Positions 7,376 to 17,885 of a DNA stretch of 64,000 nucleotides are shown piece by piece. The stretch is taken from the NCBI RefSeq assembly GCF_000523275.1, contig NZ_ATHQ01000001.1, forward strand, positions 909,799-973,798, given 5' to 3'. Under the pieces are notes generated by a model. It worked only from the letters and a program-made list of their open reading frames with translations, made no database searches and had not been told where the DNA came from. Source of the DNA: Lebetimonas sp. JH292 (lineage in GTDB: Bacteria > Campylobacterota > Campylobacteria > Campylobacterales > Nautiliaceae). The number at the start of each line of letters is the position of its first letter. The first letter of the stretch is position 1. Made by a program: the position numbers and the translations under genes.

Positions 7376-7452
<77 letters not shown>

Positions 7453-7467
7453 GTATGATAAAATATA

Positions 7468-7543
7468 TGGTGGTCGCTGCAGGGCTCGAACCTGCGACCC
7501 CCAGCTTGTAAGGCTGGTGCTCTCCCAACTGAGCTAAGCGACC
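7468..7543 (-). tRNA. tRNA-Val (TAC)
   Basis: 76-nt cloverleaf with acceptor stem GGTCGCT/AGCGACC, anticodon loop CTTACAA (anticodon TAC), TTCGAGC in the T loop and an encoded CCA. Third gene of the tRNA operon. A second valine tRNA (GAC) lies at 22944. Confidence 0.97.
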
Positions 7544-7561
7544 GTAAAGTTTTTTGGAGAT

Positions 7562-7637
7562 TGGCGTCCCCAACGAGATTCGAACTCGTGTCGCCGCCGT
7601 GAAAGGGCGGTGTCCTAGACCTCTAGACGATGGGGAC
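7562..7637 (-). tRNA. tRNA-Glu (TTC)
   Basis: 76-nt cloverleaf with acceptor stem GTCCCCA/TGGGGAC, anticodon loop CTTTCAC (anticodon TTC), GTTCGAATC T loop and an encoded CCA. Second gene of the tRNA operon. Confidence 0.97.
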
Positions 7638-7641
7638 CAAG

Positions 7642-7717
7642 TGGTGACCCGTGTTGGATTCGAACCAACGGCCCTCTGCTTAAAAGGCAGATGCTCTACC
7701 GACTGAGCTAACGGGTC
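7642..7717 (-). tRNA. tRNA-Lys (TTT)
   Basis: 76-nt cloverleaf with acceptor stem GACCCGT/ACGGGTC, anticodon loop CTTTTAA (anticodon TTT), GTTCGAATC T loop and an encoded CCA. First gene of the tRNA operon, starting about 18 bases after the -10 box. Confidence 0.97.
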
Positions 7718-7735
7718 AATCATTTGTGGAGTGAA

Positions 7736-7764
7736 ATTATAAGAAAAAAATATTTGCTTGTCAA
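7736..7764 (-). promoter_or_regulatory. near-consensus sigma-70 promoter of the tRNA operon
   Basis: On the minus strand: TTGACA (7764-7759), a 17-base spacer, TATAAT (7741-7736). Both hexamers match the consensus exactly, which is rare in this AT-rich genome, where -35 boxes are usually weak. It fits a strongly expressed stable-RNA operon Lys-Glu-Val-Asp. Confidence 0.88.
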
Positions 7765-7784
7765 GAAAAAAGGAAATAAAAAAT

Positions 7785-7926
7785 TGCACCGAGCCCTTAG
7801 GGCTGCAGGCGTATGAAGTGCAAGTTTGCACAAATTCATCGCCGTGCGAGCCTAAAAACGACAAGCAGTTGTCGTTTTATTAACGGCTCTCCTGTTTGCA
7901 ATTTTTAGCAAAATTTGAGCGGTGCA
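7785..7926 (-). ncRNA. candidate structured RNA with five-helix junction, unknown family
   Basis: A closing stem TGCACCG/CGGTGCA (7785-7791 with 7920-7926) encloses four consecutive hairpins: AGCCC/GGGCT (7792-7804); a bulged stem of about 17 pairs (7805-7847); GAGCC/GGCTC (7848-7852 with 7885-7889) holding a perfect 10-bp stem AAAACGACAA/TTGTCGTTTT (7855-7878); and TTTGC/GCAAA (7895-7912). Almost no bases are left unpaired between helices. On the minus strand the closing stem runs into a T-rich tail (ATTTTTTATTT), like an intrinsic terminator, which is why I assign that strand. It lies between the end of batD and the tRNA promoter. I recognise no SRP, 6S, tmRNA or RNase P motif. Confidence 0.6.
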
Positions 7927-7990
7927 TTAGCAAAATGAAGCTCTGAAGCTTTGTAGTTATATTTCTATAAATAATACGGGTAAAATAAAA

Positions 7991-9406
7991 TTAAAGAGAT
8001 TTGATTATTTCTATAATCTCTTTTTTGTCTATTTTATTTTTTTCACCTTTATAAATATTTGCTTCAAGTTTTTTTAATATTTCGTCTATTTTTTTGTTTC
8101 CAGCAAAAGGAAGCAATAATTGAAAAAGTTCTTTATTATCTGCTTTTTTGATTTGTTCATAAATATCTTTTTTTGGAAATTTTATTTTATATAAACTTAA
8201 ACTTAACAGCAGTGTAATTAAAACCCCTAAAACAAAAGCGATTAATATTAAAATATAATTTGTTTTATATACAATTTTTGTTTTAATTTTTACAGGATGG
8301 GTGAAATTTTCTGTTTTTGGCAGATTTATCATAGAATTTTCTATTTTTATATATAAAGGGTTGCTTTTTACTTCTTTTAATTTTCGGTTAAATTCCAGTA
8401 ATGAAACGGGTGAGAGATTAATATCTTTTGGACTTAATACGGTAAATTCTTTTTGATAAACGCCGCAAAGTATGTTATTTAGAATTTTTGTTTTCAATAT
8501 AGGTTTTTTTTCATATATTGTGGCGTTTTTTATATTTAATTTGAAATTTTTCATATCATAAAAATCTCCGCATCCGCTTATTTTCAATGTTATATGAACA
8601 GGCGTGTTTGCAAGCGCTTTTTTTTTGTCAGCACTTAATGTTATGTTAAAATCGCCCCAGATACTGTTTTGGGGAATCGGTTTTACTTTTAATTTTACTT
8701 CATTTGATACTATTCTTTTATATCTGATAAAAGCGGCTGAAAAGAAAGGGTCATCAAACGGGTTTTCTTTTTGCAAAATTCCGATATTGGCCAGAATAGG
8801 CCCTATTTCAAAAATTCCGCTTTTTTGAGGTATTATCAAAAATTTATATTTGGTTATTTTATAATTGTTTTTAATAAAAGTTTTGCTGGAAATTTGATTT
8901 ATTAAAAAATCCTGAAGTGCAGGTCTTTGAATTTGAATACTCTGTGGATTTGCATCAATATTTTGGGAAAATTTAATGGTTAATATCTTTCCTTCCCCTA
9001 AGAAACTTTCATTTTTGTCTAAACTGAGGGTCAAATCATAATTTTTATCATTTGTTTTTTCCAATTTATGAACGGTAATTTTTATCGGCTTTGTATAAAA
9101 GGTTTTGCCGTCTACAATAACTTTAAAAGAAGGTATTGTTATATTTTTTAAAGGATAAAAAATATAACTTCTGGAAATTTGTGTGTTCATTTTTCCGTTT
9201 ATAATAGTCACATTTTCACTCTTTGCGCTTCCCTGCACTTGGTATGGCCCTATTTGCGCAATATCCGGCATTTTTACATTTTTACCTTCCGCTGTGATTG
9301 TGAAAATTACTTCATTGCCTTCGGATATGTCAGTTTTGTTTACGCTTACGTTTACGTTTACATTTGCAAAAAGCAAAACCGCTATTAATAAAATAAATTT
9401 TTTCAT
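7991..9406 (-). CDS. batD: BatD-like exported membrane-anchored protein
   Basis: 471 residues: signal peptide (about 1-17), extracytoplasmic beta-rich region starting VSVNKTDISEGNEVIFTITA (the BatD 'oxygen tolerance' domain start), and one membrane segment near 385-408 followed by a charged cytoplasmic tail. BatD proteins are thought to act with BatA/BatB von Willebrand proteins and MoxR in envelope stress tolerance. Last gene of the leftward operon moxR-DUF58-small membrane protein-batA-batB-batC-batD, one base after batC. Confidence 0.85.
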   Translation of the reverse strand: MKKFILLIAVLLFANVNVNVSVNKTDISEGNEVIFTITAEGKNVKMPDIAQIGPYQVQGSAKSENVTIINGKMNTQISRSYIFYPLKNITIPSFKVIVDGKTFYTKPIKITVHKLEKTNDKNYDLTLSLDKNESFLGEGKILTIKFSQNIDANPQSIQIQRPALQDFLINQISSKTFIKNNYKITKYKFLIIPQKSGIFEIGPILANIGILQKENPFDDPFFSAAFIRYKRIVSNEVKLKVKPIPQNSIWGDFNITLSADKKKALANTPVHITLKISGCGDFYDMKNFKLNIKNATIYEKKPILKTKILNNILCGVYQKEFTVLSPKDINLSPVSLLEFNRKLKEVKSNPLYIKIENSMINLPKTENFTHPVKIKTKIVYKTNYILILIAFVLGVLITLLLSLSLYKIKFPKKDIYEQIKKADNKELFQLLLPFAGNKKIDEILKKLEANIYKGEKNKIDKKEIIEIIKSL

Positions 9407-17132: not shown

Positions 17133-17885
17133 ATGGCAAGAAAACCGAGAGTAAATGACCCTGGATTTTATCATATCGTCAACAGAGGTGTAAACGGGGC
17201 GGAAATTTTTAATGAAAAAGAAGATTTTTATAAATTTTTATCACTGATGTTAAAAACAAAATATGATTATGACATTACATTTCATGCTTTTACAATTTTG
17301 CCAAATCATTATCATTTGTTAGTGCAAACGCACAAAGCAAATTTAAGCGAAGCCATGAGGCTTTTAAACAGTGCATATGCCGCATGGTATAACTATAAAA
17401 GCAACAGAATCGGGCATTTGTGGAAAGGAAGGTTTGACAGTTTTATGCTTTTTAATAAAGAGCATTTTTGGAAGATTGTAAAATATATAGAAAGAAATGC
17501 TTTTGTATTGGGACTTGTGGATGATATTGAAAAATGGAAATATCAGTCTTTGTATTTAAGAGAGCATAAAACAAAATTCAATGAAATTATTGAGGGAAGT
17601 AAAATATTAACAAAACCTGTTGACGAATATATAAAATGGCTAAATAAACCTCTCGAAAAATTTGAACTTGAGGAAATTTATAATGAGCCTAAAATTGTTA
17701 AAACAGAAGACGGCAGCCTCAAAGTAATCAGAAAAAAAATAGGTGATTTTTTTAATGAATATAAAGATAAAGCAAAAGCCGTAAGAGAAGCCAAAAAAGC
17801 AGGATACAAATATACAGAAATTGCAAGATATTTAGGTGTTAATAATGCATATATTCAAAAAATTTTAAAAAATAAAGAGGGTTAA
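17133..17885 (+). CDS. REP-associated tyrosine transposase (RAYT, IS200-like Y1 family)
   Basis: 250 residues. The N-terminal ARKPRVNDPGFYHIVNRGVN and the HUH motif NHYHLL are typical of RAYT proteins; RIGHLWKGRF and KYIERNA (probable catalytic Tyr) follow. The C-terminal part (about 195-248) adds a helix-turn-helix, YTEIARYLGVNNAYIQKIL. RAYTs are single-copy, domesticated Y1 transposases linked to REP palindromes rather than insertion sequences. Good ribosome site (AAAGGAG) at 17122. No insertion-sequence ends are seen around it. Confidence 0.9.
   Translation: MARKPRVNDPGFYHIVNRGVNGAEIFNEKEDFYKFLSLMLKTKYDYDITFHAFTILPNHYHLLVQTHKANLSEAMRLLNSAYAAWYNYKSNRIGHLWKGRFDSFMLFNKEHFWKIVKYIERNAFVLGLVDDIEKWKYQSLYLREHKTKFNEIIEGSKILTKPVDEYIKWLNKPLEKFELEEIYNEPKIVKTEDGSLKVIRKKIGDFFNEYKDKAKAVREAKKAGYKYTEIARYLGVNNAYIQKILKNKEG

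Follow-up and report, generated by a model that had tools for sequence, protein, structure and literature searches.

Four tRNA genes (7376-7717, identified by ARAGORN) are encoded on the minus strand of the 64,000-nucleotide stretch of Lebetimonas sp. JH292 DNA analyzed here (the window). As originally predicted, a consensus promoter for these genes is found 20 bases from a compact structured element at 7785-7926. The features of this locus are listed below, where R1 and R2 are covariance models of the inner double hairpin and the percentages are alignment cells found to be paired.

about 7777..7968, minus strand: MITE remnant (outer layer), aligned with about 14 copies of the same genome
7806..7893, minus strand: inner double-hairpin repeat of 88 bp; 110 bits with R1 and 101 bits with R2
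7848..7889, minus strand: hairpin A; helices 1 and 2, 95.7% and 98.4% of cells paired
7808..7843, minus strand: hairpin B, a bulged stem with a variable tip; helices 3-5, 82-89% of cells paired
7792..7804, minus strand: hairpin C (AGCCC/GGGCT), in the MITE tip; 71% of cells paired in 13 composite copies
7895..7912, minus strand: small hairpin TTTGC...GCAAA in the MITE arm; present in the fold, 80% of cells paired, little covariation
7785..7791, minus strand: 3' half of the closing stem (partner 7920-7926); 44% of cells paired, like slid controls
7736..7764, minus strand: promoter of the tRNA Lys-Glu-Val-Asp operon; TTGACA-17-TATAAT, 12/12 matches

When the minus strand of 7785-7926 was folded, a minimum energy of -60.5 kcal/mol was obtained compared to a mean of -35.6 for shuffled sequences (z -7.5), and none of 200 shuffles matched it; the plus strand folded at z -6.0. 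All helices named in the original prediction were present in this structure: a closing 7-bp stem, the TTTGC/GCAAA hairpin, hairpin A with its perfect 10-bp stem, hairpin B with 17 pairs and bulges, and hairpin C. Hairpin A is built of a 5-bp outer stem, the internal loop GTTAA, the 10-bp inner stem and a fixed loop, AACTGCTT. The core has a G+C content of 0.47. That the element belongs to no known family was borne out by Rfam, which gave no match at gathering score across the whole window and none in 7720-8000 even up to E = 10.

By DNA search of 41 related genomes, the same genus and family were found to contain full-length copies sharing as much as 92% identity. In the genome of the window itself, about 14 partial copies matched the outer parts only and, in other families, the middle part alone was matched. 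Thus, the element is composed of two layers.

The inner layer was examined in an alignment (A2) of 130 copies, 123 of them distinct. Among the distinct copies, 92.1% of cells were paired compared to 38-44% in controls with slid partners; fitting to the model biases this alignment toward the structure, yet the slid controls still fall far below. The search for compensatory changes suggested in the original prediction yielded double changes at 29/29 pairs, including every pair of hairpin B, and 762 doubly changed cells compared to 212 in shuffles, in a set where related genomes contribute copies that are not independent of one another. The loop AACTGCTT and the internal loop GTTAA/GTAAA were mostly fixed while the stems varied, and AACTGC and TT of hairpin A were kept at 90% or above. 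The inner element spans 86-88 positions, comprises two hairpins and has GGAG, GTGAG or ATGAG at its 5' end. G-U pairs outnumbered A-C mismatches in the stems (94 vs 47), a mild hint of RNA on this strand of the element. Taken together, these results revealed the inner element is structured and constrained to fold.

The outer helices were assessed in 13 full-length composite copies, for which slid controls of the whole structure paired at 35-44%. Hairpins A and B were paired in 94-95% and 84-95% of cells, respectively, and hairpin C in 71%, whereas the closing stem (44%) paired no better than the slides. Thus, the proposal of a single five-helix unit was not confirmed. Conservation covers 7806-7893 and extends more weakly to hairpin C.

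The 88-bp middle (7806-7893) was found by covariance model in 55 of 298 genomes. With a model built from 130 copies, the inner element was detected in 87 of the 397 sampled Campylobacterota genomes and in 37 of 68 genera, at 1 to 15 copies per genome and usually without the Nautiliaceae MITE. One strict pattern run against 84,980 species genomes matched in Campylobacterota only, in Helicobacter sp. 11S02596-1 and in Nautiliaceae, Campylobacteraceae and Campylobacterales records. Sequence-level searches of plasmids, phages and viral contigs gave no match, and a phage or plasmid origin was rejected at that level. A composite transposon was likewise rejected: in one genome (G084) two copies lie 5 kb apart, and the genes between them, as in a cluster of a second genome (G165), resemble common housekeeping genes or those of prophages. 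No matching description was found in an open-access library of the literature on Nautiliales or Campylobacterota repeats.

The outer layer is a Nautiliaceae MITE. Short copies in the same genome reach inverted ends, GGCACTGACTAAAT...ATTTAGTCAGTGCC. The exact 14-bp TIR, GGCACTGACTAAAT, occurs 28 times in 13 of the 21 family genomes (0 for the reversed control), and paired TIRs in Nautiliaceae are mostly 146-234 bp apart. Perfect 8-bp target duplications were detected in about ten MITE copies, such as CAAATTAA, TAAGTTTG, ATTAATCC and TAAACATA. This layer shares with MITEs its short length, lack of coding sequence, inverted ends, 8-bp duplications, intergenic position and multiple copies. It is unlike them in that no autonomous partner was found, the 28 TIR loci of the family and the single-ended TIR sites of the same genome having yielded no transposase between TIRs, and in that its tip has a structured module common to several families. 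Two loci of the same genome (L214 and L223) contain another MITE subtype, in which the TIR is unchanged but the interior differs (AAAGCGAAACAATTGCAAATTTT...).

The MITE copy in the window is decayed. Its left arm is degenerate, its right arm (ending near 7777, beside the tRNA promoter) and both TIRs are gone, and no 8-bp duplication was seen for it. Composite copies in G001 and G011 have recognizable inverted ends without clean 8-bp duplications, so the composite itself is only putatively mobile. The inner element is joined to MITE-like tips in the same way in different families; it may thus be a long-standing component of a MITE and not an insertion.

The sites of inner copies include stop codons, the 3' ends of tRNA genes, rRNA spacers and CRISPR array ends. 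About 20 of the 130 copies have an upstream stop codon within their first 14 nt. At groEL stop codons of several genera the copy lies at offset -4 or -2; at other stop codons it lies at -13/-14 and the ORF is ended by the TAA of the internal loop. A FabI-like gene (L155 4081-4929, G084) seemingly takes its last four codons and stop from the element (AWN-GEDR-stop). Gene pairs around copies, called by a simple ORF rule, were convergent in 37 cases vs divergent in 11. The 3' ends of tRNA genes carry the element in three genomes (G023, G168 and G222). In two others (G037 and G061) it is observed in the 16S-23S spacer after tRNA-Ala, at three places per genome, and a partial tRNA 3' end is repeated on the far side of the element in these spacers (L036 and L154). 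CRISPR array ends that are leader-distal, as judged from repeat orientation only, bear copies at G002, G007, G011, G037, G061 and L083. The last repeat of short arrays contains a copy at L029, L030, L035 and L153 (G002, G037 and G061), within about 1-2 kb of Cas1 or RT-Cas1 genes.

In 9 of 78 solitary copies, the adjoining target is directly repeated and the repeat stops at most 3 nt from the start of the element, compared to 3 of 466 shifted positions. These repeats are 16 to over 90 bp long and look like long, variable target duplications, the alternative being a tandem duplication followed by insertion. Ahead of one copy (L162 4033-4119, G023), the start of the adjoining peroxiredoxin-like gene is duplicated over 61 bp, and this duplicate ends exactly at the element.

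The inner element is thus a structured, dispersed, phylum-wide repeat family that is nested in a MITE within the window. We consider it probable (about 0.72) that this is a family of non-autonomous mobile hairpin repeats, often located at transcript ends, and that the window holds a decayed composite copy. The outer MITE would have been moved in trans by a DDE transposase. The inner element would likewise be non-autonomous, and its hairpins may be recognized as single-stranded DNA or RNA by some enzyme; searches of carrier genomes for Y1, Cas1 and RVT_1 revealed none that tracks it. Copies would be retained chiefly where transcription units end, since insertion does little harm there, and may persist as tolerated or useful transcript ends. 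Hairpin A, with an A-rich arm, a G-C-containing stem and TTTTTAG, is a possible transcription terminator; as a minus-strand terminator it was not reported by a terminator scan. The copy in the window would be a relic that separates the upstream operon from the tRNA promoter.

The overlap of about 20 of 130 copies with an upstream stop codon, groEL of several genera included, would also suit a functional RNA element acting in cis (a terminator or a processing or stability signal at operon 3' ends) that is selected in place and was captured by the MITE by chance. The preference for convergent over divergent context and the excess of G-U pairs over A-C mismatches (94 to 47) point the same way. 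This explanation is possible at best, as it does not sit well with the patchy spread (87/397 genomes), the tandem arrays, or the copies that lie within CRISPR repeats and behind a gene start duplicated in truncated form.

Somewhat more doubtful is that the double hairpin represents a mobile structured nucleic acid found class-wide and inserted by a mechanism of its own. This mechanism would duplicate target DNA, 16 to over 90 bp of it, at the 5' boundary of the element and favor RNA-coding sites: tRNA ends, the rRNA spacer and terminal CRISPR repeats beside RT-Cas1. Such a mode would fit a host enzyme whose insertion is target-primed or RNA-templated.

Insertion by a Cas1-type integrase (of CRISPR adaptation or RT-Cas1) is improbable. 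It would account for the long duplications and for CRISPR repeats and tRNA ends being hot spots: leader-distal CRISPR copies lie within about 1-2 kb of RT-Cas1 or Cas1 in G002, G037 and G061, and the direct repeats at tRNA and CRISPR sites (16-27 bp) resemble the duplications of casposons, which are 1-27 nt (PMC4046053). Like casposons and CRISPR spacer integration, the inner element is inserted near tRNA ends and CRISPR repeats with longer-than-usual duplications. By contrast to casposons, it carries neither Cas1 nor PolB. Direct repeats of 61 to over 90 bp occur at some copies, and the CRISPR repeat is interrupted internally. Cas1 was detected in 22 of 28 carrier genomes and missing from 6, while 21 of the 28 had no RVT_1 match; thus, neither Cas1 nor a reverse transcriptase is an obligate partner.

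It is more improbable still that the inner element is a repeat of REP/BIME type mobilized by a Y1 (RAYT) transposase. The window has a RAYT-like gene (17133-17885), the inner element is an extragenic hairpin with conserved unpaired bases that overlaps stop codons, and a longer element of G002 has an inverted pair of hairpins. However, Y1_Tnp (PF01797, searched in 41 and 21 genomes) was missing from 10 of 21 element-rich genomes, and the element was near 0 of 59 Y1 loci by R1 search, such that a RAYT/REPtron system is largely refuted. REP/BIME repeats (PMC3733652) share with the inner element extragenic palindromes, compensatory stem changes, a gene-end preference and termini that supply stops. 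REP repeats of the GTAG and CGTC families measure 20-40 bp and bear a GTAG or CGTC tag (PMC3733652), whereas the inner element spans 86 bp, forms two hairpins whose loops are fixed, lacks this tag, has a low copy number (1-15) and shows no RAYT linkage; from the GTAG/CGTC repeats of Sulfurovum (PMC3733652) it is set apart by description only. The gene at 17133-17885 (plus strand) encodes a 250-aa Y1_Tnp protein beside a glyceraldehyde-3-phosphate dehydrogenase gene, and one Y1_Tnp gene of about 250-290 aa was observed in most sampled Nautiliaceae genomes.

Equally improbable is a stand-alone small RNA of about 140 nt on the minus strand, which the strong fold would suit but which had no clear promoter of its own identified, has an unconserved closing stem and belongs to a multi-copy repeat with a truncated MITE arm. 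The small RNA gene offered in the original prediction is instead a repeat dispersed next to unrelated genes, with as many as 15 copies in a genome, and in the window it forms the tip of a truncated MITE; of its three options, the DNA palindrome element came closest to the outcome.

The hairpin repeats described here, proposed to be mobile, form a previously undescribed structured family that is phylum-wide, and repeats of this sort can readily pass for new non-coding RNA genes. The fixed loop, the long duplications at an exact 5' boundary and the CRISPR and tRNA sites provide a handle for finding an insertion enzyme. By description, mitochondrial repetitive hairpin elements are similar as mobile-looking, non-coding double hairpins; they are organellar, whereas the inner element is one defined family with conserved loops. 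As judged by alignment only, the inner element is the opposite of integron attC, which has a variable loop, conserved AAC...GTT boxes and a linked integrase: the loop of the inner element is fixed and its stems vary.
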